From IMG/VR virus record IMGVR_UViG_3300042889_001503, positions 208,438-272,437 of that record: 64,000 nt of DNA. One strand, 5' to 3'. Shown one piece after another: positions 584 through 59,622 of the stretch; the stretch's first letter is position 1; each line of letters opens with the position of its first letter. The stretch comes from a virus. The translations under genes were made by a program, and so were the position numbers. The notes under the pieces are model-generated. The model saw only the letters and a program-made list of their open reading frames with translations. It was not told the DNA's origin and searched no databases.

Positions 584-2176
584 ATGAAATTATTAGAAAG
601 TATAAAACAAATTATTACTGAGGCTTCAAAGAAAAAAATCTTAATGGATAAGATTGGTTTTAATGAGGATAATGCTGACCTATTAGATAAATTGTGTGGT
701 CCGTTATCGGTTTGGATGGCAAAAAAAATGATGGAGTTCCAACAATATAGTAGTGGAAGGTTGGGTAATCAAGTAAAAACGGGTTCTGAATTAATAGACC
801 AAATGAATAACAATGGTGTTTTAAGAATGAAACAGAGTGGTATCCAATCTATTATGGATTGGGTTCGGGTTGGTTTAAACGGTAATTTGGGCGAATATAA
901 AGATTTACCTTTTGTTGACTTGGTTTTACAGTCAAAAGAATGGCACGATAATTTGGAAATTGGACAGGGTGATATTAATTATAAAGAACAAAACCCAACT
1001 ATATTAGATTTCACTGATGAAAATGGAAATGGGTTTTATTGGGCTGATTTGAATACAAAAAACTCATCAGAAGAATGTAATAGAATGGGACATTGTGGAA
1101 GAAGTTCTTATGGATATCTTTATTCATTAAGACAAGTAATTCCGATTAACAACAAATATAAATTAAACAAATCAGTTCTAACTGCGGCAATTGGTGAGGA
1201 TGGTATTATGTATCAGTTGAAGGGTGTTAAGAACTCAAAACCAAAAGATGAATACCATCAATACATTCAACCGTTATTCTATGTGTTAGGTGGTGAAGGT
1301 GAAGAAGATGATTATCTAATTCAAGGTTTTGGAACGGAGTACGCATCTGAACAGGATTTTAAATTGTCTGACTTACCGGAACAAACAATCAAAGAATTGT
1401 ATCAAAATAGACCGGAGTTGTTCTCGTCAAGACCTATGCAACGATTGTTAGATAAGATGGGTATTATTGAAATGGAACCATTACCAACAGGATTCTCATT
1501 AGAAATTAAACCTGAGGATTTTGATGATTATGTTGATGGATGTACCTATCGTACTTATACTAATAGAACAACCGGAAAACAAACAAGAACAAGTATTTTT
1601 GTTGAAATAATGGCTGGTGATGCTTGGGATTTGTGGAATCAAGACGGTTACGAAGATTTTGGTAGTTATTTCCAATATACAGTAGACAAACCAACCGAAG
1701 AAAGATTGTGGGATATTGTTAGAAAAATGGCAGAAAGAGATGGTGTTGAATTAGATGAGGATTTAGATTTAGAAGATTCTATCAAACAAGTGGATGATGA
1801 TTGGGAAATAAGAAATGCTATTGGTGGTGCGATAAATGATGCTGACGCAAATGATTATGTAGATTTTCTACAGAAAGAAATTGAGTCGGCGTTAGAGTTT
1901 TATGGTAATGTATATGAATTTAATGACACCGGAGCCAAAATTCAAGTCGATTTAGCTAATTTAGTTGATATTGATGAAGGTTGGGTTGATGAAATATTTG
2001 AAAATCATATGAATAGGGATGGTAAGTATGATTTAGAAGGAATATTTAATGAATTATTATCTGAAAGTCATATTGATAAACCTGACTTTGACCCCGATGA
2101 CAGATGGTATCCATCACCTGATGATAGTGTTGTAAATGAAAATGTTAATTATAGATTAGATGATATAAGTATATGA
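584..2176 (+). CDS. Leader-peptide protein with PcfJ-like MGHCG motif
   Basis: 530 aa. The N-terminus MKLLESIKQIITEA carries the leader that recurs across the window, with a putative processing site after I-T-E (residue 13). The middle holds SSEECNRMGHCG, then YSLR, then KGVKNSKPKDEY. This order resembles the E-x3-M-x-HC / SLR / KG-x-N-x-KP pattern of PcfJ-like proteins, whose role is not established. The C-terminal third is very acidic. It begins just after a late motif and overlaps the glycosyltransferase start by 4 nt (ATGA). The function is unknown; packaging into the virion is inferred only from the leader. Confidence 0.85.
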   Translation: MKLLESIKQIITEASKKKILMDKIGFNEDNADLLDKLCGPLSVWMAKKMMEFQQYSSGRLGNQVKTGSELIDQMNNNGVLRMKQSGIQSIMDWVRVGLNGNLGEYKDLPFVDLVLQSKEWHDNLEIGQGDINYKEQNPTILDFTDENGNGFYWADLNTKNSSEECNRMGHCGRSSYGYLYSLRQVIPINNKYKLNKSVLTAAIGEDGIMYQLKGVKNSKPKDEYHQYIQPLFYVLGGEGEEDDYLIQGFGTEYASEQDFKLSDLPEQTIKELYQNRPELFSSRPMQRLLDKMGIIEMEPLPTGFSLEIKPEDFDDYVDGCTYRTYTNRTTGKQTRTSIFVEIMAGDAWDLWNQDGYEDFGSYFQYTVDKPTEERLWDIVRKMAERDGVELDEDLDLEDSIKQVDDDWEIRNAIGGAINDADANDYVDFLQKEIESALEFYGNVYEFNDTGAKIQVDLANLVDIDEGWVDEIFENHMNRDGKYDLEGIFNELLSESHIDKPDFDPDDRWYPSPDDSVVNENVNYRLDDISI

Positions 2177-2883
2177 GTTTAAGTAAGGATTTAACAATTG
2201 TAATCCCCTGTAAAAATGAGGGATTAATCATAAAGAAAACTTTAGGATTGTTAAACTTGCAAAATAATATTAAAGGTGTAAATGTAATGGTTGCCGATTC
2301 TTCAACGGACGATGGATTCACACAGAAATGTATTCTTGGTTCATACCATACCAACATCAATGTAAAAATAGTTAAAGGGGGATTTCCGGCTGAAGCCAGA
2401 AACAATGGTGTCAAAAAGATAAAAACTCCTTATGTTTTATTTTTGGATGCCGACATATTCATCAACCAATATTGTTTATTAAATTGTATGGTTGAAGTTA
2501 TGAAAGAAAATGATTATCATTTGTCAACAACTAAAATGAGAACTGACGATGGTGATTACAATTATGTGTACAAATCATTTGATGTTATCCAATACTTAAC
2601 CAAATTCTCCACACCCTTTGCGGTTGGAGGATTTATGTTATTTAATTTAGAGGAATTCAATTCATTGGGAGGATTTAATCCGGATGACAAGTTCGCTGAG
2701 GATTATCATTTAAGTTCAAAAATAAAACCAAATAAGTTTTATGTGGCAAACAAAATTGTTTATACCACATCAAGACGATTCAAGAACAAAGGTTTATTCT
2801 ATATGGTTAAGATGATGATTAAATCTTGGTTTAATAGAAATAATGATGAGTTCTTCACAAAGGAACATAATTACTGGACATAA
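2173..2883 (+). CDS. Family 2 glycosyltransferase
   Basis: 236 aa. The N-terminal LTIVIPCKNE strand-loop, the acidic VADSSTDD and the metal-binding LFLDADIF (DxD type) are the GT-A signature of GT2 enzymes, which move a sugar from a nucleotide-sugar to an acceptor. FAEDYHLSSKI fits the downstream ED catalytic-base region. There is no obvious membrane span, and the basic C-terminal tail could sit at the membrane. The start overlaps the upstream gene by 4 nt and the stop overlaps the phosphoesterase start by 1 nt, so the three genes probably form one operon. The target sugar and acceptor cannot be read from sequence; host surface glycan or lipid modification is plausible. Confidence 0.88.
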   Translation: MSLSKDLTIVIPCKNEGLIIKKTLGLLNLQNNIKGVNVMVADSSTDDGFTQKCILGSYHTNINVKIVKGGFPAEARNNGVKKIKTPYVLFLDADIFINQYCLLNCMVEVMKENDYHLSTTKMRTDDGDYNYVYKSFDVIQYLTKFSTPFAVGGFMLFNLEEFNSLGGFNPDDKFAEDYHLSSKIKPNKFYVANKIVYTTSRRFKNKGLFYMVKMMIKSWFNRNNDEFFTKEHNYWT

Positions 2884-3602
2884 TGAAATACAAAACAATA
2901 ATTCTATCAGACATTCACTTGGGTTCCAAATCAAGTAGAGCCAACGATGTTATAGAATTTCTTGAAAACAACACCACAGAGACATTAATATTAAATGGGG
3001 ATATCGTTGATGGTTGGGCACTCAAAAGAGGTGGTAAATGGACCGAAAGTCATACCAAAGTATTGAGAAAGATAATGAAGATGAGTGAGAAAGGTGTGAA
3101 TGTTATTTGGCTTAGAGGAAATCACGATGAGTTCCTAAAAGATTTCATTCCATTTCATTTATCCAATCTAACAATCACGGAGGATTATACCTTCACATCC
3201 ATAGATGGTCGTAAGATGTATGTGTTTCACGGAGATGTATTGGATGTATTCATTACCAAAGCAAAATTTTTAGCTCACATCGGTTCAATAGGTTATGATA
3301 TAGCATTATGGATGAATAGAGTTTACAACAAATATCGTGAGATGAGAGGGTTACCTTATTATTCCATCTCCAAAGATATTAAAAGTGGGGTTAAGAAAGC
3401 CGTTAATTTCATAAATGATTTTGAACATAACGCAATACTATTGGCTTACAAAAAAGGATGTGATGTTGCCGTATGTGGACACATTCATCAACCGGAGTTA
3501 AAAGACAATTATATGAATAGCGGGGATTGGTGTGAAAACTGTACCTCATTAGTGGAAACAAAAAAAGGAACGTGGAAAATAATAGAGTTTCACAAAAAAT
3601 AA
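2883..3602 (+). CDS. LpxH-like metallophosphoesterase
   Basis: 239 aa. It has all calcineurin-type metal-binding blocks: LSDIHLGS (D-x-H), NGDIVDGW (GD), LRGNHDEF (GNHD), VFHGDVLD (HGD) and CGHIHQPE (GHxH). This spacing and the HGD block match the UDP-2,3-diacylglucosamine diphosphatase-like group (COG2908), whose best-known member LpxH cleaves a lipid A precursor. Several relatives act on other substrates, so the lipid A role is inference. The gene is coupled to the GT2 gene, which fits envelope remodelling. Confidence 0.88.
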   Translation: MKYKTIILSDIHLGSKSSRANDVIEFLENNTTETLILNGDIVDGWALKRGGKWTESHTKVLRKIMKMSEKGVNVIWLRGNHDEFLKDFIPFHLSNLTITEDYTFTSIDGRKMYVFHGDVLDVFITKAKFLAHIGSIGYDIALWMNRVYNKYREMRGLPYYSISKDIKSGVKKAVNFINDFEHNAILLAYKKGCDVAVCGHIHQPELKDNYMNSGDWCENCTSLVETKKGTWKIIEFHKK

Positions 3603-3603
3603 A

Positions 3604-5671: not shown

Positions 5672-5673
5672 TT
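5495..5673 (+). ncRNA. Candidate structured non-coding RNA
   Basis: A transcript of about 180 nt would run from the promoter at 5481 to the terminator at 5648-5673. Visible helices: TTAGG-caat-CCTAA (5570-5583, with a second possible CCTAA partner at 5586-5590), GAATCA-N7-TGATTC (5598-5616) and GGTT-aac-AACC (5618-5628). Unpaired purine-rich segments (GGAAACCC, GTCGAAAGAT, GGTGACAAGG) look like those of folded RNAs. I do not recognise an Rfam family. It could be an sRNA, a riboswitch-like element or a 5' leader. Confidence 0.5.
5648..5673. terminator. Strong bidirectional terminator
   Basis: AAAAAGGTTCC-TTCG-GGAACCTTTTT, a perfect stem with a stable UUCG loop, lies between the candidate RNA and the convergent gene ending at 5672. 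Confidence 0.9.
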
Positions 5674-6157
5674 AATTGGGCATATTTCTTGTAAACACAT
5701 CACCATATCTATCAACAATAATTGTTGGGGATTCGTTAACTCTAAATTTAAGATGGTTAGGGTGTTGAATTGATGTATTTATAATTATTTTAATCCTATT
5801 ATGTGTTCCATTTAACCACATATGATAATCAATACCCGCTACATTGTCGATAACATTAATTGAACATCTAACAACACATTCTTGCATTATTCTTCTTGCT
5901 GATTGTATTATTGTTGATTCTATATCCATTATAGAATCGTTAATTTCATCTGGGTCAACTCTTTGAAATGAACTACTAGAACCGACAGACTCCTGAGAAT
6001 GGGGGTTTTTATACAAGTTAATTAAACTATTTTCACTTCTATGTAATCTTCTAATAAAATCTTGTTCACCTAAGATATTATTTACAACAATTTCATATAT
6101 TAAAATTGGTTTTGGTTCTGTATATTCCCTTAATATCTGTCTAATTAATTCCTTCAT
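5672..6157 (-). CDS. Leader-peptide protein (LREY type)
   Basis: 161 aa from the ATG at 6157, which lies 4 nt from a reversed ATATTTAT motif; the upstream in-frame extension is therefore rejected. The leader is MKELIRQILREY, with the putative site after L-R-E. The body has a Ser-rich linker (SQESVGSSSSF) and a beta-rich C-terminal half. Unknown fold. Likely late-expressed and packaged if the leader hypothesis holds. Confidence 0.75.
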   Translation of the reverse strand: MKELIRQILREYTEPKPILIYEIVVNNILGEQDFIRRLHRSENSLINLYKNPHSQESVGSSSSFQRVDPDEINDSIMDIESTIIQSARRIMQECVVRCSINVIDNVAGIDYHMWLNGTHNRIKIIINTSIQHPNHLKFRVNESPTIIVDRYGDVFTRNMPN

Positions 6158-6527: not shown

Positions 6528-6896
6528 ATGGATGTTAAAATTAGTGAGGGGAAGTTAGAGTTTTTAATGGATACTATCTTTGATGGTTTGGGTGTAGATG
6601 TCAATCGTCTATCACACAATTTCCAAGTAAGAATGAGTTATTTAGAATTTTTAGCTTCTGTAACAACAAGACGAGAAATGGTTGCTAAATATGATTTTGA
6701 GTGGAATTACATAATTGTGTTTGATGATAAGTTTTATGATTTGGTTAAACCTTGGGTTTCTCGGAAAGTTTATGATGTAATTAAAGAAGATTTAATTAAG
6801 AGAATTTTTAAGGTGTATACCAAGAAATATAAATCAATATATAAAGAGGAGCCTAAATCAATTAAATTTGTTGATAAGGATTTTAATAAAGTTTAA
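6528..6896 (+). CDS. Leader-peptide protein (KISE type)
   Basis: 122 aa. The start MDVKISEGKLEFL resembles the short leader class, with I-S-E at residues 5-7. The rest is mixed helix and strand with a basic C-terminus (KVYTKKYKSIYKEEPKS). It has a late motif before it and a terminator after it. Function unknown. Confidence 0.72.
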   Translation: MDVKISEGKLEFLMDTIFDGLGVDVNRLSHNFQVRMSYLEFLASVTTRREMVAKYDFEWNYIIVFDDKFYDLVKPWVSRKVYDVIKEDLIKRIFKVYTKKYKSIYKEEPKSIKFVDKDFNKV

Positions 6897-9460: not shown

Positions 9461-9655
9461 ATGAAGTTAATTATAACAGAGTCACAATATGAAACCATCA
9501 ACGAGATGATTAAACTTAACATTAAGGTAGGTGATACCATTATGGGTGGAAAATTTAAGAACAAGAAGGTTGTTGTGAAGACAATCGACAAGAATGAAAA
9601 GGGGGATATTACAATAAACGGTAAACCATTGTTACGTTTTAGAATCATAGAATAA
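9461..9655 (+). CDS. Leader-peptide protein (IITES), first of array
   Basis: 64 aa. The start is set at 9461 by the GATATTTAT motif and the MKLIITESQY leader; the in-frame ATG at 9446 lies inside the motif. The body is a compact basic beta domain (VGDTIMGGKFKNKKVVVKTI). The stop overlaps the next ATG by 1 nt. Confidence 0.75.
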   Translation: MKLIITESQYETINEMIKLNIKVGDTIMGGKFKNKKVVVKTIDKNEKGDITINGKPLLRFRIIE

Positions 9656-9984
9656 TGAAGATATTGATTAAAGAAGATAAAAGAGATAGAATTGCCAAAC
9701 GGTTATTAACTGAGGAATTCTCCGGAATGTATGAAGATGTTAATTATATGACAGATTCACGGGGGGAACACAAAACAATCGAATACCGTAATGGTGAAGG
9801 AATCATAATGATTTACGGTAATACTGATAATATTTTATATATCTGTGAAGATGTCACTCGTCCACTTAATCTACTTAGTTACACACCAAAACAACTTAAA
9901 GATGTTATTGGTGAATGGTTCTCAGAGTTTTTTGAATTACCGGTTCAATATATTCATCACGTAAATAAATCAGTGTTAAACTAA
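9655..9984 (+). CDS. Leader-WF family protein
   Basis: 109 aa. Leader MKILIKEDKRDRIAKRLL (site after I-K-E), a variable central beta domain, then the shared C-terminal module (DVIGEWFSEFFELPVQYI) in which a helix carrying W-F is followed by a short hydrophobic strand. One of at least ten window proteins with this three-part layout. Function unknown. Confidence 0.78.
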   Translation: MKILIKEDKRDRIAKRLLTEEFSGMYEDVNYMTDSRGEHKTIEYRNGEGIIMIYGNTDNILYICEDVTRPLNLLSYTPKQLKDVIGEWFSEFFELPVQYIHHVNKSVLN

Positions 9985-9985
9985 T

Positions 9986-10579
9986 ATGAAAGAGTTAATT
10001 AAAAAAATATTACGAGAGGAAGTTCAGAAGAGATTTACAAAATCTAATCAAAGTTTTGAGCGTCTTATTATTAAACAGATGGAGTCTTTAATATCCGAAA
10101 CAAATAGAGTTGTTGTCCCACCTGAAGAGAATTATGGAAACTTTAATGAGGAGTGGTGTAAAGGTGATAAAATTATTATGCAGGCAAGATACTTTTTCAG
10201 TAGTGAAGATAGTGATGAAGAAAAGTTTTTTGGTGGTGATTTATATGTTAATAAAGAAGAAATTGATTTTTTATCTCAAATGTTACAGGTTAGAAAACCC
10301 TATTTACTTAATGTAATTACCGAATGGTATGATGAGAAATACGCTACCAAGTTTGGTCAAGAAACCGGACACCCGGAATTGGAGATTGATGAGACTCACG
10401 AAACGGATAGTGACCATAAATGTTATAAAATGATTAATACTTCAAACCTAAGTAGAGAATATATGATTGATTATATTGATACAAATACATTATATAAACT
10501 TAGTGAATTGGAAAAACTACCTGATGATGAGTTAGAAAGAAAATACCGAAGTGTTTATAATATCCAATTAAATAAGTAA
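9986..10579 (+). CDS. Leader-peptide protein (ILREE type)
   Basis: 197 aa. Leader MKELIKKILREEVQKRF (site after L-R-E), a second helical stretch, then an acidic body with VITEWYDEKYATKFG, which resembles the WF module but is internal. The stop overlaps the next ATG by 1 nt. Confidence 0.75.
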   Translation: MKELIKKILREEVQKRFTKSNQSFERLIIKQMESLISETNRVVVPPEENYGNFNEEWCKGDKIIMQARYFFSSEDSDEEKFFGGDLYVNKEEIDFLSQMLQVRKPYLLNVITEWYDEKYATKFGQETGHPELEIDETHETDSDHKCYKMINTSNLSREYMIDYIDTNTLYKLSELEKLPDDELERKYRSVYNIQLNK

Positions 10580-10959
10580 TGAAAGTATTAATAACTGAGA
10601 GCAGATTAGAAAGTTTAATCATTGATTACTTAAATGATTCGTATTACCCTGATTATGGGTGGGCAAATCCTGATGTTTATCAAAAAGATGTTAAACAATA
10701 TGGTGATGTTCTTTTCTTTGTTGATGACCGAGAATCTTATATTTATTATGGTTGTAATGCAAACGCCGGTCCGGAAGATGAGTTCTTTGCGGGTTATGGT
10801 CATCTACATAATTATAAATGTCCTTTACTGTCAATATACCCCCTTATAACTCAAAGATTGGATTCTACTTTTGGTGACATATGGAAACCAATATTCAAGA
10901 AATGGTTTGAAGATAATACAGGGTTAGAGGTTACTCAATTAACAACAAATTTCATATAA
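10579..10959 (+). CDS. Leader-WF family protein
   Basis: 126 aa. Leader MKVLITESRLESLIIDYL, then a Tyr/Asp-rich middle with YYGCNANAGPEDEF, and the C-terminal module PIFKKWFEDNTGLEVTQL. Closest by layout to the protein at 36204 (same IIDYLN start and KWxPxFxxWF end). Confidence 0.78.
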   Translation: MKVLITESRLESLIIDYLNDSYYPDYGWANPDVYQKDVKQYGDVLFFVDDRESYIYYGCNANAGPEDEFFAGYGHLHNYKCPLLSIYPLITQRLDSTFGDIWKPIFKKWFEDNTGLEVTQLTTNFI

Positions 10960-11258
10960 TGAAAGTATTAATAAAGGAAAGTAAGTATAATAATTTAATT
11001 GAGAACTATATCCTCAATGGTTATCCTGTAGTTAAAAACGTGACATTTACAACAAAGGATGTTTACTTGGCTAGTGGTAATAAAAGTGAGAGAAGAACAA
11101 TTCAAAGAAACATCATTAATGTTGGGTTTAGAGGAGGTGAGATGCAGAATAGTCCAACACGAACATTAAGAGAAATTAGAGCTGATATTAATCGTATGTT
11201 TGGTTTGGATATTGATATGTCAGGTTCACATTGGGGTATTGAGTATAAAATGTTGTAA
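10959..11258 (+). CDS. Leader-peptide protein (LIKES)
   Basis: 99 aa. Leader MKVLIKESKYNNLIENYI; basic middle with Arg/Asn repeats; C-terminal helix DINRMFGLDIDM that is a weak form of the shared module. Confidence 0.72.
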   Translation: MKVLIKESKYNNLIENYILNGYPVVKNVTFTTKDVYLASGNKSERRTIQRNIINVGFRGGEMQNSPTRTLREIRADINRMFGLDIDMSGSHWGIEYKML

Positions 11259-11260: not shown

Positions 11261-11590
11261 ATGAGAATAGTAATCACAGAAAATAAAAGAGATATGTTAT
11301 TTAGAGAGGAGTTTAAAAACCTGTTTAATAAATTAACTCCAACAAGAGCCGGACATACCGAGAACATTATCTACATATACTTTGATGAGGTATATGATGA
11401 TAATGCGGTTACAGGGTTGGTATATAGACCAAGTAATCGTCAATTAATTATATATCCGGATTACTTTATTAGTTTAAGAATGTTTGTTTCATCTGAAGAA
11501 GAACTAAAGGAAATGATAGGAATATGTTATGAGGAATTAACTGATAAAATAGTTAGATATTCTTGGATTTGGATAGATAATGAGTTATGA
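11261..11590 (+). CDS. Leader-peptide protein (VITEN)
   Basis: 109 aa. Leader MRIVITENKRDMLF; a central beta domain with VYRPSNRQLIIYP; C-terminal SSEEELKEMIGICYEEL. Overlaps the next gene by 4 nt (ATGA). Confidence 0.75.
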   Translation: MRIVITENKRDMLFREEFKNLFNKLTPTRAGHTENIIYIYFDEVYDDNAVTGLVYRPSNRQLIIYPDYFISLRMFVSSEEELKEMIGICYEELTDKIVRYSWIWIDNEL

Positions 11591-11916
11591 AAATATTAAT
11601 CACAGAAAATAAAAGATACCAATTAGCCTACAAGATATTAGACGATATTTTGAATGGATTGACTCGTGAGGACATTGATTTAAATAAGGATTCCGTATTT
11701 AGTAACCAACAAATAATATTCAGAGATAACAGCGATGACATTTTTATGTGGTGGTCCGAAAAATACGATTTATTGGAAGTTAATAAAGTTATGTGGGAAC
11801 CACTAAGATTGTTCTCATTCAGTGGAGAAGAACTTGAAAGAGTTATTCATTGGTGGGTTAAAAATAGATTAAGAATAGAACCGGAGGAGATTAATTTAAT
11901 TGGTGACTATTATTAA
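11587..11916 (+). CDS. Leader-WF family protein
   Basis: 109 aa. Leader MKILITENKRYQLAYKIL; C-terminal FSGEELERVIHWWVKNRL and IEPEEINLI, with the WF pair changed to WW. Last gene of the array, ending at a hairpin and repeat region. Confidence 0.78.
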   Translation: MKILITENKRYQLAYKILDDILNGLTREDIDLNKDSVFSNQQIIFRDNSDDIFMWWSEKYDLLEVNKVMWEPLRLFSFSGEELERVIHWWVKNRLRIEPEEINLIGDYY

Positions 11917-12415: not shown

Positions 12416-12823
12416 ATGGACATACAGGAAAACGTATATAGAATTAAACAAATAATGACTGAAGGTAAGGACGCTTATGTCTCAAGAGCTCGTTCTGACC
12501 AAGAGTATGAGGAAGAATATCCAAAATGGAAAAAAACTATAATTAAACTTTTAGAGATGGAAATAGATTCAAAGGCAGAAATTAACAATGGTAAAATAAT
12601 AGTTTTGCTTAATGGGAAAAACCTTGACAAAAATCTAATTAAATATGATAAAATAAATGAAAGATTATGGTATGATTATTCCTTACAAGAAAATTTGGAA
12701 GGTTATATACCATACGGTTATTTATCAAGACATTTTAAATACGGACTTCAGGACTTCTTCAAAAAACATTTCCCGGACTATGGTGTTAGAGAACTAACGG
12801 CTGCGAGTTTAGTAAGTTACTAA
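12416..12823 (+). CDS. Leader-peptide protein (long RIxQIMTE type)
   Basis: 135 aa. Leader MDIQENVYRIKQIMTEGK, a longer helical class shared with 14134, 15633 and 16181. C-terminal YGLQDFFKKHFPDYGVREL is a variant of the WF module. Convergent with the minus gene at 12829. Confidence 0.75.
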   Translation: MDIQENVYRIKQIMTEGKDAYVSRARSDQEYEEEYPKWKKTIIKLLEMEIDSKAEINNGKIIVLLNGKNLDKNLIKYDKINERLWYDYSLQENLEGYIPYGYLSRHFKYGLQDFFKKHFPDYGVRELTAASLVSY

Positions 12824-14133: not shown

Positions 14134-14904
14134 ATGAACTTACACGAAGATATACAAAGAATAAGACAAATGATGATTTCTGAGGAGATGGTCCAATCAG
14201 ATGCGTGGAAATCAATCAAAAAAACATTAGACATTCTTAAAAAGAAAAAGAAAGTTTTAATCTTAAGTTGTTCCAATAGATATAATTGGGATGAAAAAAA
14301 CCTTGACATACCAAAATCAAAGATGATTGCAATGTATCTTAACGATGAGTTAAAAGACTCAGTGTTAATTGATGTTTCCGAACTTAACATTGTTCCTTGT
14401 GAGGGGAATGTATCAAGAAAAGACGGGAACAGTTGTGGATTACTTAAATCTATGCTCAAAGATAAGAAAAAGAATCCATCCGGAGACCATAGATGTTGGG
14501 CAAGTTATAACAATCCAAAGGATGAGTTATGGAAGATATCCAAAGAGTTATTTGAGTCAGATGCTGTTGTATTCTTTAGTTCAATTAGATGGGGACAAAC
14601 CAATATGTTCTATCAGAATTTAATTGAGCGATTGACTTGGATTGAGAACAGACACGCAACATTGGGGGAATCAAATCTTGTTAAAGATATTGAGACAGGA
14701 TTCATTTGTGTTGGACAGAATTGGAATGGTGAGAACGTAACTGAAACACAGAAAGAAGTTCATAAGTTTTATGGATTCAAACCAAACAATGACTTGTATT
14801 GGAATTGGCAATATACCAAAGATGTGAATGATGAAACTCAAAAATCATATAAGGATTCACACAAGAAGTTTATTAAAGATACAAAATTACCTGAAGATAA
14901 ATAA
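14134..14904 (+). CDS. Flavodoxin-fold NAD(P)H-dependent oxidoreductase with leader
   Basis: 256 aa. Residues 1-18 (MNLHEDIQRIRQMMISEE) are the long leader class with the site after I-S-E. The rest is a flavodoxin-like FMN reductase: VLILSCSNR (first strand and phosphate loop), VLIDVSELNI, then SDAVVFFSSIRWGQTNMFYQ, the conserved strand-loop that contacts FMN in this family, and a C-terminal FICVGQNWNG. The family reduces FMN or quinones with NAD(P)H. An enzyme with this leader would, on the packaging hypothesis, be carried in the virion. The stop overlaps the next ATG by 1 nt. Confidence 0.82.
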   Translation: MNLHEDIQRIRQMMISEEMVQSDAWKSIKKTLDILKKKKKVLILSCSNRYNWDEKNLDIPKSKMIAMYLNDELKDSVLIDVSELNIVPCEGNVSRKDGNSCGLLKSMLKDKKKNPSGDHRCWASYNNPKDELWKISKELFESDAVVFFSSIRWGQTNMFYQNLIERLTWIENRHATLGESNLVKDIETGFICVGQNWNGENVTETQKEVHKFYGFKPNNDLYWNWQYTKDVNDETQKSYKDSHKKFIKDTKLPEDK

Positions 14905-15629
14905 TGAACTTACGACATGACATAAAAAGAATATTAAGGGAAGAAACAAATAAAGATTTAACTTCGGTAATAGAAATGTTATTAGAGGGATTTGTTAATG
15001 ACCACAAAGACATTCTTTGTAAGGTTGAGGTTAAGCACCCGGACAAGAGAACCAAACTACCACATTCGGATAATGTTTATGAGAATTACAGAGCAACATT
15101 TTATTTAATTGCTCATAAAGGTGGGTATTCAACAACAAGAGCTCAATTGATGGATAACGTAATGAATGAGGTGTGGGATTTGGTATATAATTATACCGGA
15201 CAGAAATTAGATATGTTTACCAAACACGTAAAGAGTTGTGACGATATTATAAAAGAGAGTAAAGATAATAGTATTTCTGATATGATAAAAACTTTGGGGG
15301 TTTCTGATGCCATTAAGTATTTTGGGAATTACTACACAATTGAGCCATACTTAAAAGTGGTTGATAAAGTTAATTTTATTAAAGAAAAAGTTAGAGAATT
15401 AAGTGATGATGGTAGTGGTGTTGGTTTACACGAGATAAATGAAGAGCCACTTCATTATAGTGATGAAGATGGGGAGGAACATCAAATAGAATGGTTAGGA
15501 CTAACAAGTGTAGACATTAGTGTATATGAAGATGAGTATAGTGGTCATTTAAGGGACTATTATTCTAAGTATGAAAGTTTACCTGTGCAAATAATTGAGG
15601 AATTGGTTGAGATATTATTAAACCACTAA
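14904..15629 (+). CDS. Leader-peptide protein with GxxxAIKYFG module
   Basis: 241 aa. Leader MNLRHDIKRILREE; an N-terminal domain (residues 20-115) absent from its neighbours; then a C-terminal module starting SDMIKTLGVSDAIKYFG and ending DYYSKYESLPVQIIEELV. The next two genes carry the same module, so this is the longest member of a tandem paralog set. Confidence 0.78.
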   Translation: MNLRHDIKRILREETNKDLTSVIEMLLEGFVNDHKDILCKVEVKHPDKRTKLPHSDNVYENYRATFYLIAHKGGYSTTRAQLMDNVMNEVWDLVYNYTGQKLDMFTKHVKSCDDIIKESKDNSISDMIKTLGVSDAIKYFGNYYTIEPYLKVVDKVNFIKEKVRELSDDGSGVGLHEINEEPLHYSDEDGEEHQIEWLGLTSVDISVYEDEYSGHLRDYYSKYESLPVQIIEELVEILLNH

Positions 15630-15632: not shown

Positions 15633-16178
15633 ATGAATTTAAACGAGAACATACATAGAATCCATCAGATGATGGGTGTAGTGAGTGAAGATGTGAGTCC
15701 AAACACTGTTAAAACAATAATTGATATATTAGGTATTAGAGATGCTATTAATTATTATGGGGGTTATGAGAACCTTAAAAAATATCTAAATTTGGTTTAT
15801 GATAGGAAGAGTGGTAAATGGGTGCACGCGAGTACATTACAGACCAATCCTGTTGATTTAAATACTATTACATCAAGAGAAGATAAGATTGAGTTTATTA
15901 AGGATACAATTTTTACTCAATACTACGGATTGTTTACTTATGGAGATGAAGGTTGGGACGAGAGTGATTATTCTGTGTTAGAGAGTACTGAAACTTATGA
16001 AAAGGTAGCATTTACATACTATACTGATGAATTAAATGTAACAACATTTTATAGAAATGAGAATGGTGAGTTTTCATCTCAAACCGAAAATGATGACCAT
16101 AGTGAAACAATTAAATATGAGGATTTACCGGATGATATGATTAATAACGCATTTGAGTTTATAGCTAAAAAAATTTAA
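15633..16178 (+). CDS. Leader-peptide paralog with AINYYGGYE module
   Basis: 181 aa. Leader MNLNENIHRIHQMMG ending V-V-S-E-D, then ILGIRDAINYYGGYENLKKYL and the C-terminal YEDLPDDMINNAFEFI. At DNA level the first ~44 nt are identical to those of the next gene. Confidence 0.78.
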   Translation: MNLNENIHRIHQMMGVVSEDVSPNTVKTIIDILGIRDAINYYGGYENLKKYLNLVYDRKSGKWVHASTLQTNPVDLNTITSREDKIEFIKDTIFTQYYGLFTYGDEGWDESDYSVLESTETYEKVAFTYYTDELNVTTFYRNENGEFSSQTENDDHSETIKYEDLPDDMINNAFEFIAKKI

Positions 16179-16180: not shown

Positions 16181-16639
16181 ATGAATTTAAACGAGAACAT
16201 ACATAGAATCCATCAGATGATGGGGATTATCAATGAGAATAAAGTGGTTGATGTTGTTCAAGAAATGGGGTTATACCAAGCCACTCGTTATTTTGGGGGT
16301 TATGACAAAGTTACAAAATTAATGGGGGATTATGTGTTCTCAAATGAAGAAATGATTGATTTTATTAGAGAGGCTATAAAACATTTAGCTTACAAACATA
16401 ATTCAACCGGGATATCTACGTATGAATTAAATATGAATTCTATTCCATATGGTTCTCCTGATGAGGAGTTACATCAAATTGAGTATTTCAACCCGGAGTA
16501 TGTTACCATAGATGTTTATGGTGGTGAAGAGTATGAAAGACACAGAAGTAGTTATACTGAACGATATGAGGATTTGGATGATAATACATTAGATGAGGTT
16601 TTCCTGTTTATGGTTGACGCAGTAGAACACTACAAATAG
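16181..16639 (+). CDS. Leader-peptide paralog with ATRYFGGYD module
   Basis: 152 aa. Leader MNLNENIHRIHQMMG then IINE; EMGLYQATRYFGGYDKVTKLM, HQIEYFNPEYVTIDVYGGEE and YTERYEDLDDNTLDEVF align with both upstream paralogs. Likely product of local duplication. Confidence 0.78.
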   Translation: MNLNENIHRIHQMMGIINENKVVDVVQEMGLYQATRYFGGYDKVTKLMGDYVFSNEEMIDFIREAIKHLAYKHNSTGISTYELNMNSIPYGSPDEELHQIEYFNPEYVTIDVYGGEEYERHRSSYTERYEDLDDNTLDEVFLFMVDAVEHYK

Positions 16640-16641: not shown

Positions 16642-17055
16642 ATGAGTTTACAAGATACCATAAGAAGAATATTAAGAGAGGAATCCTATTCTCCGGCGAG
16701 TGATGAATATACTCCGGGGGAATATATTGTTCATAAATCAAATCCTATATGGAGAGACAACATAGAACTTACCGGATTACAAACATCGGTGGGGGAATGT
16801 TATCAATCACACGTCGGTGACGATGAAGAATGTAAACCATCCATATTTGCAACAGATTCATTAGATGAAAAAGATATGTTTGATTCCACATATGACGATG
16901 ACATTTGGATTATCAATACGGAATGTGCCGGGGTTACTTGGTATAAAGACAAACATTTTGATGGTGGATATTACAAACATCATATAGTTACATTCGAGAA
17001 CATATCACCGGACTGTCTTAGATTATTATATAAAGGAACGGGGAAAAGTTATTAA
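16642..17055 (+). CDS. Leader-peptide protein, possible ADP-ribosyltransferase-like fold
   Basis: 137 aa. Leader MSLQDTIRRILREE, then YIVHKSNPIWRDNIELTGL, SIFATDS and DSTYDDDIWIINTE. The order His at the first strand, I-x-x-x-GL, an aromatic or Ser strand, then a late acidic strand recalls small ADP-ribosyltransferase-like proteins of phages. I cannot identify all catalytic residues, so the fold call is tentative. T4 Alt is a precedent for a packaged ADP-ribosyltransferase. Confidence 0.6.
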   Translation: MSLQDTIRRILREESYSPASDEYTPGEYIVHKSNPIWRDNIELTGLQTSVGECYQSHVGDDEECKPSIFATDSLDEKDMFDSTYDDDIWIINTECAGVTWYKDKHFDGGYYKHHIVTFENISPDCLRLLYKGTGKSY

Positions 17056-17439: not shown

Positions 17440-17793
17440 TTAATCAATATGATATTTAGTGATATGATATCTACCACATTTATTACAATGCCAAGTAGTA
17501 TATACAACCTTTTCAACGTGTAGATTATATCTTTCCATAAACCAAGGGATAAAGATATCGTTTATATCATAACCACTTGTAACACCAAACATAGATACTA
17601 ATTGATTTGATATCTCCTCAGATAATTCAACTATTCCATTATCACGATTAAATGTGAAAGACATATCGTCACCACTATCTTTATAGATAATAAATCTATG
17701 ACCAACGGAATACTTCCTTAAGTTACCATAGTCCATATCCAACCATTTGGTAACGACATTTTTTCTCTTGTTCTCTGTGATTATTACTTTCAT
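17440..17793 (-). CDS. Leader-WF family protein with CxxC tail
   Basis: 117 aa. Leader MKVIITENKRKNVVTKWL; central beta domain; module FIPWFMERYNLHVEKVV; then an extra tail WHCNKCGRYHITKYHID that could bind metal. Overlaps the upstream gene by 4 nt. Confidence 0.78.
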   Translation of the reverse strand: MKVIITENKRKNVVTKWLDMDYGNLRKYSVGHRFIIYKDSGDDMSFTFNRDNGIVELSEEISNQLVSMFGVTSGYDINDIFIPWFMERYNLHVEKVVYTTWHCNKCGRYHITKYHID

Positions 17794-18095
17794 ATTTGTT
17801 CTACTCTATGACATTTCTTGGCTCTAAACCCAAACTTTTTATTACCCCAATCCAATAACAACTCACTAACTTCATCGTTATCAAATCCGAACATACTACG
17901 GATAAAATCCCATATTTCATTTAAAACATAGAATCCTTTTACTCTACTGTTGTAAAGCATTTTGAACATTCCCTTATCGGATATGAATACTCCTTCGTGT
18001 GAGGGGAATATCATCTTTTTTAAGTCGGGATATTCCTCTTCTAACCAATTAATGGCGAGACGGATTCGTTTGTTCTCTGTGATTATAATCTTCAT
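17790..18095 (-). CDS. Leader-WF family protein
   Basis: 101 aa. Leader MKIIITENKRIRLAINWL; body DLKKMIFPSHEGVFISDKG; C-terminal IRSMFGFDNDEVSELLLDW followed by GFRAKKC, with Gly in place of the Phe of WF. First gene of a two-gene minus operon. Confidence 0.78.
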   Translation of the reverse strand: MKIIITENKRIRLAINWLEEEYPDLKKMIFPSHEGVFISDKGMFKMLYNSRVKGFYVLNEIWDFIRSMFGFDNDEVSELLLDWGNKKFGFRAKKCHRVEQI

Positions 18096-23096: not shown

Positions 23097-23113
23097 CTTT
23101 TTTTGAAAAAATA

Positions 23114-25249: not shown

Positions 25250-25269
25250 TTTTATTTTGGAGTTGGGGG

Positions 25270-25292: not shown

Positions 25293-25625
25293 ATGTTTTC
25301 AGCAGGTGGAGTTTATGTAATGGTAGCAGGAATCCTATTGGGATTAGCTGTTATAGGTGGGTCAGTTTATTATGTTAATAAAATGTTTGCTGATAACACT
25401 CAGGAAATATTGGTTCGGTTTATTTTATTAATATTCACCTCATTGGTTGCGTTATTTATTGTTGATAAGGTAATTGCTTGGCAGGTTAAACTATTGAGTG
25501 ATGAGCAGAATGGGCAATTATTTGATTTGATTAAAACATTGGTGTTAATGATATTCTCGTATTACTTTGGAACTAAAGAAGGAGTTGAAACCAATGGTGA
25601 CCAAAATAAGAAAGATAAAGAATGA
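25293..25625 (+). CDS. Holin-like membrane protein
   Basis: 110 aa from the ATG at 25293. Three predicted membrane helices (about residues 7-27, 38-62 and 80-94) and a short charged tail (GTKEGVETNGDQNKKDKE). IKTLVLMIFSYYFGTKEG resembles the last helix of several phage holins. The late motif and the small size fit a holin, though the endolysin is 31 kb away, so the role is provisional. It overlaps the next ATG by 4 nt. Confidence 0.6.
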   Translation: MFSAGGVYVMVAGILLGLAVIGGSVYYVNKMFADNTQEILVRFILLIFTSLVALFIVDKVIAWQVKLLSDEQNGQLFDLIKTLVLMIFSYYFGTKEGVETNGDQNKKDKE

Positions 25626-25927
25626 AAATTATTATAACAGAAGAACAGTATGGTAGAATGTTTAATTCCAAACTTTGGTTAAGACGTAACTATGATTTGG
25701 TTAAACAGGAGTTGAAGGCTACAATGGACTTCACCCGGGACCGTATCTGTGATAAAGATGAATTTGAAAATTTTGAATATTATTTCTTCTCCGTGTTTAT
25801 GGATTGCCTTCACCCTTATTATTATGAGGAAGAGAATTTTGATTATAAGGAATTTCAAACCACGTTAACTGATATGTTCTATGTTGAATGTACCGAGTTT
25901 TATTTTAACGGTAGAGAGAAATGTTAA
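25622..25927 (+). CDS. Leader-peptide protein (IITEE)
   Basis: 101 aa. Leader MKIIITEEQYGRMF; then a Tyr/Phe-rich acidic helical body (YYFFSVFMDCLHPYYYEEE). First of a four-gene leader run. No WF module. Confidence 0.75.
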   Translation: MKIIITEEQYGRMFNSKLWLRRNYDLVKQELKATMDFTRDRICDKDEFENFEYYFFSVFMDCLHPYYYEEENFDYKEFQTTLTDMFYVECTEFYFNGREKC

Positions 25928-25961: not shown

Positions 25962-26327
25962 ATGAGAATTATTATAACAGAAAGTAAATTTAAAAGTATG
26001 GTTACCAAAATGGTTGGGTATGATTTATCCCACCGTATTGAGATGATTACAAGTTGGGAGAATTTAACCGGTTCGGAAAAACATAATGTATTTGGTGATA
26101 ATAAATCTATTTTTGTTCAGTATCAAAACCATTATGGTCCGATGTATATATTTTCAAATTTTAAAGGACATAATTATTTGGCTCAAAATCAAAAAGGTAA
26201 ACTATGGTTTATTGTTGATACAAGTACTGGATACGAAATAGATTACTATGATTTTTTACAAATGCTTAATCTTGATATGACGGGTATTAGTTTAAGAAAA
26301 ATAATCGATGAATTTGCTGAAGAATGA
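25962..26327 (+). CDS. Leader-peptide protein (IITES)
   Basis: 121 aa. The start at 25962 is set by the motif and leader MRIIITESKFKSM; the upstream extension overlaps the previous gene. Beta-rich middle with HYGPMYIFSNFKGHNYL, C-terminal helix LRKIIDEFAEE. Overlaps the next gene by 4 nt. Confidence 0.76.
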   Translation: MRIIITESKFKSMVTKMVGYDLSHRIEMITSWENLTGSEKHNVFGDNKSIFVQYQNHYGPMYIFSNFKGHNYLAQNQKGKLWFIVDTSTGYEIDYYDFLQMLNLDMTGISLRKIIDEFAEE

Positions 26328-26662
26328 AAATAATAATTACAGAAAGTAAAGTTGGGCAAGTAAAAAATTTAGTACAAGAAATTATTGATGATGAGTTAAA
26401 TAACTTACGTCAAGAGGCTGATGAAGAGTGGGGTTTGGGTGAAATGGATGAGATAAATGAGGTTGGTTCTGTTGAAAAGATTGTTGTTGATGAAATAAAA
26501 ACAACTGATGGTATTAGTGTTAATGTCAATCTTTATTTAAACACAGATAGAGAAGATTTTGAAATAATTTTACCAATGATTGAATATACTATTGAGCAAT
26601 GGATTCCTAATGCTAAAATTCATATAAACAAAATATATCTAAATGAAAATAATAATTACTGA
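26324..26662 (+). CDS. Leader-peptide protein (IITES), acidic
   Basis: 112 aa. Leader MKIIITESKVGQVKNLVQEI, acidic linker (EADEEWGLGEMDEINEV), beta domain, end NENNNY. Its last 20 nt are also the leader codons of the next gene in another frame. Confidence 0.76.
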   Translation: MKIIITESKVGQVKNLVQEIIDDELNNLRQEADEEWGLGEMDEINEVGSVEKIVVDEIKTTDGISVNVNLYLNTDREDFEIILPMIEYTIEQWIPNAKIHINKIYLNENNNY

Positions 26663-36203: not shown

Positions 36204-36596
36204 ATGAAAATTATAATAACTGAGAGTAAATTAAATCAAGCGGTCATTGATTACCTGAACGAGACATACGATACCAATAACATTGGTTGGACATATGGTA
36301 TTGATGATTGGGGTAATGAAGTGGACTACGCAATTGAATTTTATACTGACGATTATGATGAAGGTGATAATACTTTATTTAGATGGTATGGTGAAGATTA
36401 TTGGGATAGTGATGATGCTGATGGTTGGGGTGAACCATATCGTAGCGAATTAAAAAGTAAATCTCCTTTGTTAATATTTGAAAATGATGATGTTTTTATT
36501 GCTTTAAACGGTTATTTTGGTGATAAATGGAAACAACCATTTATTGATTGGTTTTGGGATAAATTCCACGTACCGGTTAAGACAATCAATAAGTAG
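36204..36596 (+). CDS. Leader-WF family protein
   Basis: 130 aa from the ATG at 36204; the upstream extension overlaps the hydrolase gene. Leader MKIIITESKLNQAVIDYL, acidic Tyr/Asp/Trp-rich middle (WDSDDADGWGEPYRSELKS), C-terminal KQPFIDWFWDKFHVPVKTIN. Confidence 0.78.
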   Translation: MKIIITESKLNQAVIDYLNETYDTNNIGWTYGIDDWGNEVDYAIEFYTDDYDEGDNTLFRWYGEDYWDSDDADGWGEPYRSELKSKSPLLIFENDDVFIALNGYFGDKWKQPFIDWFWDKFHVPVKTINK

Positions 36597-37107: not shown

Positions 37108-38226
37108 ATGAAAATTAAGATTACCGAAACTCAATATAAAAATTTAGACGAAGCCGTTGGTGTCCCAACCAATATTATTTCCGTCTCCCAACAACTATAC
37201 GATAAGATGATGTTGGAACTTAGACCCAACGCCAATTTAAACGCTCAATTCCAAAAAACAATTACCTTAAAAGGTGATTTTCAAATTAACGAATATAAGT
37301 TTGACACAATAAAATTATCTTTTAATGTTCACGATTTGGATGATTATGAATTTGACGGTATAGAAAAACCTAAAGTGTTGTTAAATGGTATGACACACCA
37401 CGGGAAGGTTAAGATGAATGCTAAGTTTAATTATGAGGCAAACCAAAATATGAACAAAATTGAATTGTCAATTACTTTTGTTGTTGATAATGATGCGACA
37501 AGTCAAGACGTTATTGATGAGTTTAAGAAAGAACGAACATTAATGATTTCAAGTTTGGCTCACGAACTAAAACACGCTTATGATGAATCTGTTAACCCAA
37601 TAGTTCAAACACATAAAAGAGTTGATTATAATATTGGGACTCAAAGAAGATTTGGGAATATCCCACCGTTAAATAAATTATTAAATTATATGTATTTTGC
37701 TCACACCACAGAAAATTTGGTTAGAGCAACTGAAGTATATGCCGCGTTGGAAGAGAGTGGAATCACAAAGGAAGATTTTCTTAAATTTATCACAAACCAT
37801 AAAGTTTACGTTGCCTATAAAGATGGGATTAATTTAACTTACGAGGGATTAAAAGAAGATTTAAAGAATATTATTCCTCAAATTAAACAAACTTTTGACG
37901 ATAGTGGTATTAGTTATCCGGAGGACGCATCTGATGATGAGATGGTTGAAGTGACATTAGAGGTATTCTTTAAAACATTATTACAATGGAAAGCTGGTGG
38001 TATGAGAGATTTTTTAACCGATGATTTTATGGAAGAACTATTTGGATTCAGAGGTGCTAAACAAAGATATTTTGATAAGTATCTTAGTAAGATTACTCGA
38101 TTTGGTAACGACTACGAGAAATTCTTCAAATATGAGATTAATCAAACAAGAAACATTTGTCTTAAGATGACAAAAAAATTAAGTAAATTATATTCCTTAA
38201 TAAAAGACAAAAACCCCCAACAATAG
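37108..38226 (+). CDS. Zinc metallopeptidase (HELKH) with leader
   Basis: 372 aa. Leader MKIKITETQYKNLDE (site after I-T-E). MISSLAHELKHAYDE near residue 150 is an HExxH zinc-peptidase motif on a helix, and RATEVYAALEE about 55 residues later can give the third ligand, a gluzincin-like layout. The N-terminal beta region precedes it and a helical C-terminal half follows. The substrate is unknown; the leader suggests carriage in the virion, so it may act on host proteins or on the head. Confidence 0.75.
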   Translation: MKIKITETQYKNLDEAVGVPTNIISVSQQLYDKMMLELRPNANLNAQFQKTITLKGDFQINEYKFDTIKLSFNVHDLDDYEFDGIEKPKVLLNGMTHHGKVKMNAKFNYEANQNMNKIELSITFVVDNDATSQDVIDEFKKERTLMISSLAHELKHAYDESVNPIVQTHKRVDYNIGTQRRFGNIPPLNKLLNYMYFAHTTENLVRATEVYAALEESGITKEDFLKFITNHKVYVAYKDGINLTYEGLKEDLKNIIPQIKQTFDDSGISYPEDASDDEMVEVTLEVFFKTLLQWKAGGMRDFLTDDFMEELFGFRGAKQRYFDKYLSKITRFGNDYEKFFKYEINQTRNICLKMTKKLSKLYSLIKDKNPQQ

Positions 38227-47431: not shown

Positions 47432-48199
47432 TTAAGCCAAATTCAAATTAGCACTTGTCATAACTGAAGCTACTTTATCTTGATTATGTAAATTTGTACT
47501 TTTTCTATCGGAAATTGCTTGTTTAATTAATTCTTCATCAGATTTACCTGATTTAATACCTTCATCTAAACTTTTTGCAAATTTCTTAAAATATCCCGGA
47601 CCATTCCAGCAAGCGTATGAAAAGTGCATTAATAAACTATCATTAGCCTCAACACGTTTTTTAAGTTCAGGATTTGTAAAATAGTTTTTTGAATTAGTGT
47701 CATATTGATTTTTCATTATTTTAGCGGCTAAAGTTTTTAATGTATCCTCTAGTTGACCCCCTCTATAATAATGTTTCCAAGTTTTACAAAACTGTTGCAT
47801 ACCTAAGTCAGTTTTTTCTTTATCAATAATTCTAAAAAATTCCTTACCCTCAGGTGAACTTTCAATACTACCATTGTATCTGTCAAGACCAAACATAGTT
47901 TCTGTTGATACACCCATTCCTTTAGTTGAATGTCCACATTTAGGATTCCAGTAACCACCTTCAAATTCGTCAATCACTTTTTTGGTTACGTTTTCCCATT
48001 TAGAATCAACAGACCCTGAACTTAAATCAAATTTTCCAATTGCCGATTTTATTTTATTTCCAAAATCACCGGTTTTAAGCATATTAACAATTGTATCTGC
48101 CAAACCTTTAAGTGCGTCACCGGCTCCTTGTTCGTTAATATTATATAATGATTTAATATTGTTTTTTTCTTCTTCGGTTATTAATAATTTTTTTGACAT
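47432..48199 (-). CDS. Lysozyme-like protein with leader
   Basis: 255 aa. Leader MSKKLLITEEEKNNIKSLYN followed by INEQ; two possible sites (I-T-E, I-N-E). VIDEFEGGYWNPKCGH, GMGVSTETMFGLDRYNG and LLMHFSYACWNGPGYFKKFA resemble phage muramidase-type domains (EGGYW with a catalytic Glu, G-rich STETM-x-G). Glycosidase activity on peptidoglycan is inferred, not certain. A packaged wall hydrolase would help entry. Confidence 0.65.
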   Translation of the reverse strand: MSKKLLITEEEKNNIKSLYNINEQGAGDALKGLADTIVNMLKTGDFGNKIKSAIGKFDLSSGSVDSKWENVTKKVIDEFEGGYWNPKCGHSTKGMGVSTETMFGLDRYNGSIESSPEGKEFFRIIDKEKTDLGMQQFCKTWKHYYRGGQLEDTLKTLAAKIMKNQYDTNSKNYFTNPELKKRVEANDSLLMHFSYACWNGPGYFKKFAKSLDEGIKSGKSDEELIKQAISDRKSTNLHNQDKVASVMTSANLNLA

Positions 48200-57266: not shown

Positions 57267-58145
57267 ATGAATAAGAAATTAATTAAAGAAGACATTGCAA
57301 ATATGAAATACCTTTTTGGTTATAAACCGGGAAGAGTTATTTCTGAACAAGATATTGATTACACTACTGACGATTATTTAGATACTAACGACACTGAATT
57401 AGAAGAAAGTAACCCATTCAAAATTGGTGGGGGATTTGAAGATTACAATTTCCCTGATAAATTAAAAGATAGATTAAGTGACATTTATGATTTATTAGAT
57501 GAAGTAATGGAAGACCCGGATAACGACCCATCTGATTATTCAGATATGTATGATTTTGCGGGTGTAATAATTAGTCAAGTCTTAAATAAATTACGTGATG
57601 AATTTGGTGAGGATTTTGAAGAATACGAAGATGATGTTGATGATTATCTTAGAAATAATGAAGATGAAACAATATTTGATTTTTATAATAGTCGTTCAGG
57701 TTTTGACGATGAAGATGATGAAGATGAATTTGATGAGGATATGAATGAACAATATGACAACCAAAATGGTATGAATTGGGTTCAAAATACTACAATGGAT
57801 AGACAAAGTCCAATAGATGATGACAATGATGTTGAAGGGGGTGTGATATCAATCCTTAAAAAACATCGTTTACTTGATAACGTAGTAGAACCGGATGATG
57901 CAAGAATATTACTTAGAAATCAATCATCTGAAGTTGTTCAAAAGATTTTATCACTTTTACCTTCATTTACTGAATTAGGGTTTTTAGCGTTTATAAATTG
58001 TGAATCAGCAGATTTTTCTGATGTGGACATTTGTAGTTTACCTAACTTAGCTTTTATAAACTTAAATGGTACTGAAAATAATTTTGAAGAACAAGATTAT
58101 GAATGTGCTAACACAGAAGATTCACCTTTTTATTTCCTTGAATAG
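57267..58145 (+). CDS. Acidic leader-peptide protein (MKYLFGY...VISEQ type)
   Basis: 292 aa. N-terminal NKKLIKEDIANMKYLFGYKP then GRVISEQ: two candidate sites (I-K-E, I-S-E), of which the VISE|Q one fits a style I recall from phage structural proteins. Then a long Asp/Glu-rich region (DEDDEDEFDEDMNEQYDNQN) and a C-terminal region with leucine-repeat character (LPSFTELGFLAFINCESADF, LPNLAFINLNGTENNF). Possibly an abundant internal head protein. Confidence 0.75.
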   Translation: MNKKLIKEDIANMKYLFGYKPGRVISEQDIDYTTDDYLDTNDTELEESNPFKIGGGFEDYNFPDKLKDRLSDIYDLLDEVMEDPDNDPSDYSDMYDFAGVIISQVLNKLRDEFGEDFEEYEDDVDDYLRNNEDETIFDFYNSRSGFDDEDDEDEFDEDMNEQYDNQNGMNWVQNTTMDRQSPIDDDNDVEGGVISILKKHRLLDNVVEPDDARILLRNQSSEVVQKILSLLPSFTELGFLAFINCESADFSDVDICSLPNLAFINLNGTENNFEEQDYECANTEDSPFYFLE

Positions 58146-58915: not shown

Positions 58916-58923
58916 GTATTTAT
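58916..58923 (+). promoter_or_regulatory. Late-promoter-like motif AGTATTTAT
   Basis: Variant core, 4 nt before the ATG at 58928. Confidence 0.5.
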
Positions 58924-58927
58924 CAAT

Positions 58928-59167
58928 ATGAAAATTAGAATAACTGAATCGCAAATAAAAAAAATCGAAGAAGGTATCTTTTGGGATGAGGAGAACTTAA
59001 ATGCGTTAAAAGGTATTACGGGAACCAAACAACAAAAAGAAGTCTTTAATGTTGAGGTAATAGAACCATTTTCAATAACATTGACGGATTCAATTCAATA
59101 TCATAGATTAGTTTATATATTAAGAACAAATGGTGTTAAATTTAAAGCTAAGGTTGATAAAATATGA
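58928..59167 (+). CDS. Leader-peptide protein (IRITES)
   Basis: 79 aa. Leader MKIRITESQIKKIEEGIFWD; then a small beta domain (FNVEVIEPFSITLTDSIQYH). Overlaps the next gene by 4 nt. Confidence 0.74.
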   Translation: MKIRITESQIKKIEEGIFWDEENLNALKGITGTKQQKEVFNVEVIEPFSITLTDSIQYHRLVYILRTNGVKFKAKVDKI

Positions 59168-59622
59168 AACTAATAATTACAGAAAGTCAGTATAGAAAAA
59201 TAATCAAAGAAGATACTCAATTAGAATACACTAGTGAATTTTTGGATGGTGTTACGGTTGTTGTGGTATTTGAGGATGACCCATTATACGAACAAGTTAA
59301 AGGATACTTTGAGGAGTATGGGTTTGGGTTTATGGTTCCCGGTAAGAATTTAATCATTATTGATGGTGAAATATTAGTGGGACAACCGGACGCTAAAAGT
59401 GTTTTAAAATTTATTGAAGCTCACGAGGTTACCCACGTATTATTAAGTCACGATGGTCCAAGAGATGAGAAAGATGAGTTGGAGGCTGACTTGGGAGCTT
59501 ACCTATTATTACAAGATAAAGGATATTACGAATCAATCCGAACATTACTAGACCACTTCCAAGAAAGACACGGAGTTGAGTTTGATGAGAGTATGTTGGA
59601 CGATATAAAAAATAGAATGTAA
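59164..59622 (+). CDS. Zinc metallopeptidase (HEVTH) with leader
   Basis: 152 aa. Leader MKLIITESQYRKIIKEDTQ (sites after I-T-E and I-K-E). FIEAHEVTHVLLSHDG is HExxH; KDELEADLGAYLLLQDKGYY supplies the E-x-x-A third-ligand helix as in IrrE/ImmA (M78-like) peptidases. With 37108 it is one of two leader-bearing zincins. The substrate is unknown. Confidence 0.78.
   Translation: MKLIITESQYRKIIKEDTQLEYTSEFLDGVTVVVVFEDDPLYEQVKGYFEEYGFGFMVPGKNLIIIDGEILVGQPDAKSVLKFIEAHEVTHVLLSHDGPRDEKDELEADLGAYLLLQDKGYYESIRTLLDHFQERHGVEFDESMLDDIKNRM

Follow-up and report, generated by a model that had tools for sequence, protein, structure and literature searches.

Short N-terminal leaders as probable capsid-targeting propeptides in a large phage genome record

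Leader-bearing genes of the window

The window, i.e., the whole stretch of 64,000 nucleotides analyzed here, lies at the very end of a 272,437-base IMG/VR virus record (IMGVR_UViG_3300042889_001503, positions 208,438 to 272,437). At the start of 33 of its genes lies a leader of 7 to 27 residues ending in [I/L/V/M]-x-E, the proteins being otherwise largely unrelated, and such a short shared N-terminal segment ending in [L/I]-x-E is what characterizes a T4-type capsid-targeting propeptide. The first-pass annotation, made from the sequence alone, had reported about 34 such genes in four leader classes. This was borne out by the 33 genes counted and by a strict form of the motif, [ILVMF][ILVM]xE, which falls within residues 1 to 25 in 27 of the 120 ATG genes of the window compared to a mean of 4.7 in 1000 shuffles (standard deviation, 2.0; maximum, 11), and within residues 26 to 50 in 6 of the 120. 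The places listed at first were also correct, except that the leader at 584 reads MKLLESIKQIITE↓A and not MKIIITE↓S; the group of four genes at 25622-26643 was retained, with the start of its second gene corrected to 25962.

The four classes, defined by regular expressions, proved real. Class A is MK[I/V/L]-x-I-T-E↓[S/N/D] (↓ marks the predicted cut; consensus, I-T-E), to which a second site is often added at about residue 15 (MKIIITE↓SQYKxLLxE↓); class B is MNLQENIxRIxxMMxIxSE↓, class C is MKKxIxLTE↓SDLxxIVKRVINE↓, and class D is MKELIRKILRE↓. A fifth kind, MNKKLIKEDIANMKYLFGYKPGRVISE↓Q, was recognized at 57267, its residues 1 to 40 being 80% identical in an otherwise unrelated protein. The leader-bearing genes are as follows (window coordinates, strand, length in amino acids [aa], leader):

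584..2176, +, 530 aa, MKLLESIKQIITE↓A; homologs align from residue 15
5672..6157, -, 161 aa, class D, MKELIRQILRE↓Y
6528..6896, +, 122 aa, class A-like, MDVKISE↓G
9461..9655, +, 64 aa, class A, MKLIITE↓SQYETINE↓M
9655..9984, +, 109 aa, class A, MKILIKE↓D; second site LLTE↓E at 20
9986..10579, +, 197 aa, class D, MKELIKKILRE↓E; same body with class A elsewhere
10579..10959, +, 126 aa, class A, MKVLITE↓S
10959..11258, +, 99 aa, class A, MKVLIKE↓SKYNNLIE↓N
11261..11590, +, 109 aa, class A, MRIVITE↓N
11587..11916, +, 109 aa, class A, MKILITE↓N
12416..12823, +, 135 aa, class B, MDIQENVYRIKQIMTE↓G
14134..14904, +, 256 aa, class B, MNLHEDIQRIRQMMISE↓E; flavodoxin-like FMN/azoreductase fold in body
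14904..15629, +, 241 aa, MNLRHDIKRILRE↓E; starts as class B, ends as class D
15633..16178, +, 181 aa, class B, MNLNENIHRIHQMMGVVSE↓D
16181..16639, +, 152 aa, class B, MNLNENIHRIHQMMGIINE↓N
16642..17055, +, 137 aa, MSLQDTIRRILRE↓E
17440..17793, -, 117 aa, class A, MKVIITE↓N
17790..18095, -, 101 aa, class A, MKIIITE↓N
25622..25927, +, 101 aa, class A, MKIIITE↓E
25962..26327, +, 121 aa, class A, MRIIITE↓S
26324..26662, +, 112 aa, class A, MKIIITE↓S
26643..26963, +, 106 aa, class A, MKIIITE↓RQNNLLME↓D
26992..27483, +, 163 aa, class C, MKKIVRLTEGELTNLIKRILKE↓D
27489..27950, +, 153 aa, class C, MKKKIIKLTESDLKNIVMRIINE↓Q
30497..30817, +, 106 aa, class A, MRVIITE↓D
31062..31634, +, 190 aa, class A, MKIVITE↓RQEDLLFSLLTE↓G; DUF5872 body
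31631..32002, +, 123 aa, class A and DLLTE↓AEYQGRKV junction (EYQGRKV family)
36204..36596, +, 130 aa, class A, MKIIITE↓S
37108..38226, +, 372 aa, class A, MKIKITE↓TQYKNLDE↓A; HELKH motif in body
47432..48199, -, 255 aa, MSKKLLITE↓EEKNNIKSLYNINE↓Q
57267..58145, +, 292 aa, fifth kind, MNKKLIKEDIANMKYLFGYKPGRVISE↓Q
58928..59167, +, 79 aa, class A, MKIRITE↓SQIKKIEE↓G
59164..59622, +, 152 aa, class A, MKLIITE↓SQYRKIIKE↓D; HEVTH motif in body

Across the whole 272 kb record, the class A DNA pattern (up to 2 mismatches) was found at 25 places, mostly inside the window, and its reversed control at none. Outside the 33, the gene at 29368-30495 starts MNIKISKNQYDKLKKK (MNIKISKNQY...) and looks like it carries a decayed class A leader that no longer has its Glu; in other contigs, related bodies are preceded by class B or D leaders.

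Conservation and exchange of leaders

IMG/VR was scanned with back-translated leaders, one scan per class (51 stretches for class D), and the proteins behind the leaders were clustered by BLAST, which may split or merge families. The four classes together head at least 627 unique proteins in at least 241 body clusters, and class A alone, for which conservation fades after about residue 16, precedes at least 33 unrelated body clusters among the 120 stretches listed. The search patterns for classes B and C did not include the terminal [ILVM]xE. Among the matches listed, it nevertheless closes 93 of 98 class B leaders and 140 of 141 class C leaders, compared to 10 to 36 and 32 to 41, respectively, in same-sized windows further down; the second site of class A, at residues 13 to 17, is present in 129 of 223 (15 to 30 in windows further down), again among the matches listed. 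Class A, the commonest leader, had no match in 84,980 cellular genomes.

Since two of the body clusters, large and chained (40 and 39 members), are in part low-complexity joins, a strict pair test was used to look for exchange of leaders. One body was found with different leader classes in 17 testable families among the matches listed. In these, lining the proteins up at the predicted cut brings the bodies into register to a median of 1 residue (within 3 in 14 of 17 families), compared to 7 residues when anchored at the Met and 7.9 with random cuts. For instance, mkkiirlteselillvkrVINE↓GLHDTSWQND is matched by mnlqeniqrikqmmgLLKE↓GLHDTSWQNE, and mkiiitesqykfLIE↓NQEVVDRILDK by mkkiirltesdltrivnrvINE↓NQEEVDRILDK. 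Leader and body are thus separate modules that meet at the predicted cut, as seen from these swaps and from the EYQGRKV family described below.

Shared gene starts could also be recombination handles or remains of duplication, i.e., recent paralogs or conserved gene-start DNA kept for shuffling. Tandem runs of similar small genes (15633/16181 and 17440/17790) and the swapping of leaders between bodies would fit such an origin. However, leader codons are free to vary and differ widely by synonymous change while the peptide stays constant, which indicates that selection acts on the protein; moreover, the bodies are unrelated by BLAST and non-similar leaders do the same job, making this explanation highly improbable. 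We give even less credence to the idea that the leaders serve translation or regulation, e.g., as part of an initiation region coupled to a TATTTAT element just upstream. Many leader genes do have this element 4 to 6 or 13 to 18 bases ahead of the ATG (within 40 bases in 283 of 624), but it stands at the same distances before 652 of 2421 other genes and is therefore not leader specific, and leader conservation is at the protein level.

TATTTAT itself occurs at preferred distances before ATG codons here and in relatives, e.g., upstream of 584, 12416, 14134, 37108, and 58928, and resembles a phage promoter that would leave transcripts with very short 5′ ends. In three other loci (L359:9178-9768, L210:737-1618, and L231:5173-6012), two or three cargo bodies are chained and have LxE-like sites at the joints, which would fit several cargos being translated as a single polypeptide and then separated by cleavage.

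Head module, S77 protease, and leader presence

The same contig holds a T4 head module in T4 gene order, which was read by searches and from three stretches (contig coordinates):

25071-26957, gp20 portal
between portal and protease, core-like protein with many LxE↓S sites
28476-29201, S77 (gp21-like) protease
between protease and gp23, acidic scaffold-like protein
31137-33008, gp23 capsid protein; candidate site, LINE↓A

The gp21-like prohead protease that the first-pass annotation had proposed to look for was thus found in the record (E value, 5e-25), and it aligns with T4 gp21 across the LNHP and GxSSRG regions, which hold the catalytic His and Ser. As for a scaffold or capsid protein with the same site, also sought at that stage, gp23 provides a candidate: LINE62↓A lies where a T4-like propeptide should end, although this position was assigned by eye, the automatic alignment having left a gap there. 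Capsid proteins of relatives keep the sequence LINE↓A or LLNE↓S. Of 18 leader-bearing records longer than 150 kb, 14 carry gp23 and the same 14 carry S77; the other 4 have neither and look like fragments.

The EYQGRKV family ties the leader to the protease. The body of the 31631 protein (...LLTE↓AEYQGRKV...) also occurs in named phages, and the family bears a leader in 3 S77-positive phages and none in 4 S77-negative ones. In the S77-positive phages C48C1 and HTVC008M, the leader ends in LTE↓A or LEE↓A, whereas the proteins of Aegir, Kolga, CRP-902, and HTVC106P, in which one profile search found no S77, start with MAKYQG, MAKYQG, MATYKG, and MAIDK, respectively, and these starts line up with the first residue downstream of the predicted cut. 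Because the aligned parts of the Aegir and Kolga proteins do not differ, the four represent about three independent cases. A leaderless homolog of the 59164 protein in another contig starts adjoining the predicted cut.

A DHH body carries a class A leader in IMG/VR phages. In phage records of 634 to 735 kb, it follows MISKYNQFINE↓E, MLRKYGQFINE↓E, or MIKEFHNFALNE↓E, which are much like the leader of T4 internal protein III (IPIII), MKTYQEFIAE↓A; in these records, every match of the S77 model fell below its cutoff. Neighboring genes there (L441-L443) also have T4-like leaders, MLKNYWTYIKE↓S and MLRYFDYIKE↓S, and the same leader system may operate in some of the largest phages known.

The cultured, S77-positive Flavobacterium phage immuto (L449-L451) has leader classes of its own, concentrated near the head genes: MENFDLKKFLVE↓NKLTxNSKLLKE↓, MKKQILSEQFKRMQxLAGIITE↓S, and MKKSQLRxIIKE↓. 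In a further IMG/VR record, G002 (268,739 bases; L142 and L146), the genes for the gp23 capsid protein and for the S77 protease are each present twice, and the propeptide of the second capsid protein is different (..QAKQLVTE↓T); the record has either two head modules or a chimeric origin.

Cargo and the role of the leaders

Searches of the window's own bodies against Pfam, PHROGs, and NCBIfam revealed almost no function. Among 100 body representatives, Pfam domains include wall-related ones (peptidoglycan-binding, lysozyme, M23, SLT, VanY, and cell-wall hydrolase) as well as ART-PolyVal, GNAT, sigma-70, SET, poly(A) polymerase head, dual-specificity phosphatase, and GDSL; PADLOC gave two borderline matches only with these 100. 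The HELKH body at 37108 is a possible metallopeptidase judging from inspection only, which also revealed the HEVTH motif at 59164. PDB sequence searches with the 47432 and 14134 proteins returned nothing, and no search made gave an identity for the 47432 body. The fold of 14134, flavodoxin-like flavin mononucleotide (FMN)/azoreductase, came from structure comparison only (predicted local distance difference test [pLDDT] score, 66; Foldseek E value, 1e-4). In this model the leader is a separate helix with a low-confidence joint at the predicted cut. The low-confidence model of the 584 protein also has a leader helix, at residues 2 to 13, ending at the predicted cut, but was too poor for a structure search (pLDDT, 65; predicted template modeling score, 0.47).

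The helices in both models and the several wall hydrolases among the cargo, often tail proteins elsewhere, would also suit sorting or docking peptides for the tail, membrane, or phage nucleus, or retention in the prohead without cutting, x-E then being the end of a binding helix. We consider this unlikely, given that in swapped pairs the homology of the bodies changes immediately past the Glu, that S77-negative phages start the protein there, and that proteases of this type (S77) are known to cleave at the motif (PMC9026906).

Instead, the leaders are very probably capsid-targeting propeptides of a T4-type prohead, cut by S77, with the cargo left in the head and entering the host. Each leader would attach its protein to the scaffold core while the prohead grows, the gp21-like protease would then cut after [I/L/V/M]-x-E, and the mature cargo would stay inside the head with the DNA. 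Entry into the host at infection, where individual cargos may exert their roles, is a more distant inference than packaging and cleavage. Several leader classes would do the same job and be exchanged between cargo genes. Packing through leaders cleaved by a gp21-like protease, as initially proposed, is supported by the S77 gene in a T4-ordered head module, the leader swaps at the cut, the presence of S77 in 14/14 records with gp23, and the absence of the leader in S77-negative phages in the EYQGRKV family.

Several points weigh on the other side. No virion proteome of leader-bearing relatives was found, and none exists for this phage; the linear record may not cover the whole genome. Class A offers two possible cuts, at residue 7 and at about 13 to 17, and different proteins favor different ones. 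The automatic alignment of gp23 with T4 gp23 is gapped at LINE↓A, and by inspection classes A to D have only the final x-E in common with the IPIII leader.

In T4, ten residues of the capsid-targeting sequence (CTS) suffice in IPIII, the motif is L/I-x-E, and the Alt propeptide has 7 residues (PMC9026906); T-even internal proteins are diverse and have only the CTS in common (PMC3012670; PMC12373910). The present system resembles these in its short N-terminal propeptides, L/I-x-E sites, unrelated bodies behind a common leader, S77 protease, and gp20-gp21-gp22-gp23 order. Unlike T-even phages, which have one CTS family on few proteins (three in T4 and at least 10 in relatives; PMC12373910), it has 33 tagged genes in 64 kb, at least four interchangeable leader classes, and many enzymes in the wider cargo. 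From sequence comparison, it appears to work like the T4 CTS but outside its sequence family, except for the leaders of the 634- to 735-kb records. The giant phages phiKZ and SPN3US also cut N-terminal propeptides after Glu, with S77-related prohead proteases, and pack many head proteins (PMC10052503, PMC9026906), but they use S/A-x-E or A-x-E, while all 33 window leaders have [ILVM]-x-E at the predicted site; furthermore, SPN3US propeptides mostly span 111 to 254 residues and most of its head proteins are uncut. A short N terminus of P1 DarB likewise suffices to carry a reporter into the head (PMC9024508), although Dar proteins have no shared leader and no reported L/I-x-E code. Phage-injected polyvalent proteins share domains such as ART-PolyVal and GNAT (PMC5512222, PMC7824862) but are large and multidomain, whereas the cargos here are mostly single-domain proteins, each with its own leader. 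Text searches for the leader peptides and for an earlier description of the system found no paper among open-license articles. The principle is known (T4 CTS and gp21), and the novelty lies in the number per genome, the several interchangeable classes, the enzyme-rich cargo, and the wide spread in uncultured large phages.

More tentatively, the leaders might form an encapsidation code, in which at least five interchangeable address classes pack dozens of enzymes or effectors per virion, giving an injected proteome from the start of infection; the classes would perhaps load different core parts or amounts.

Injected phage proteins act ahead of phage gene expression, can disarm host defenses, and are hard to recognize. 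To our knowledge, targets are known for only a handful of T-even internal proteins. A leader ending in a protease site would offer a mark, readable without other data than sequence, for injected proteins across many uncultured phages. The tagged bodies (ART-PolyVal, GNAT, sigma factor, DHH/SET, flavin-reductase fold, lysozymes, M23, and others) would then constitute a large list of early-effector candidates, and the leaders themselves are candidate tags to load chosen proteins into large heads.

Elsewhere in the window, a G+C-rich direct repeat of 50 bases (23055-23104 and 25208-25257; 92% identical, 2.15 kb apart) flanks a region holding the gene at 23166-24242.

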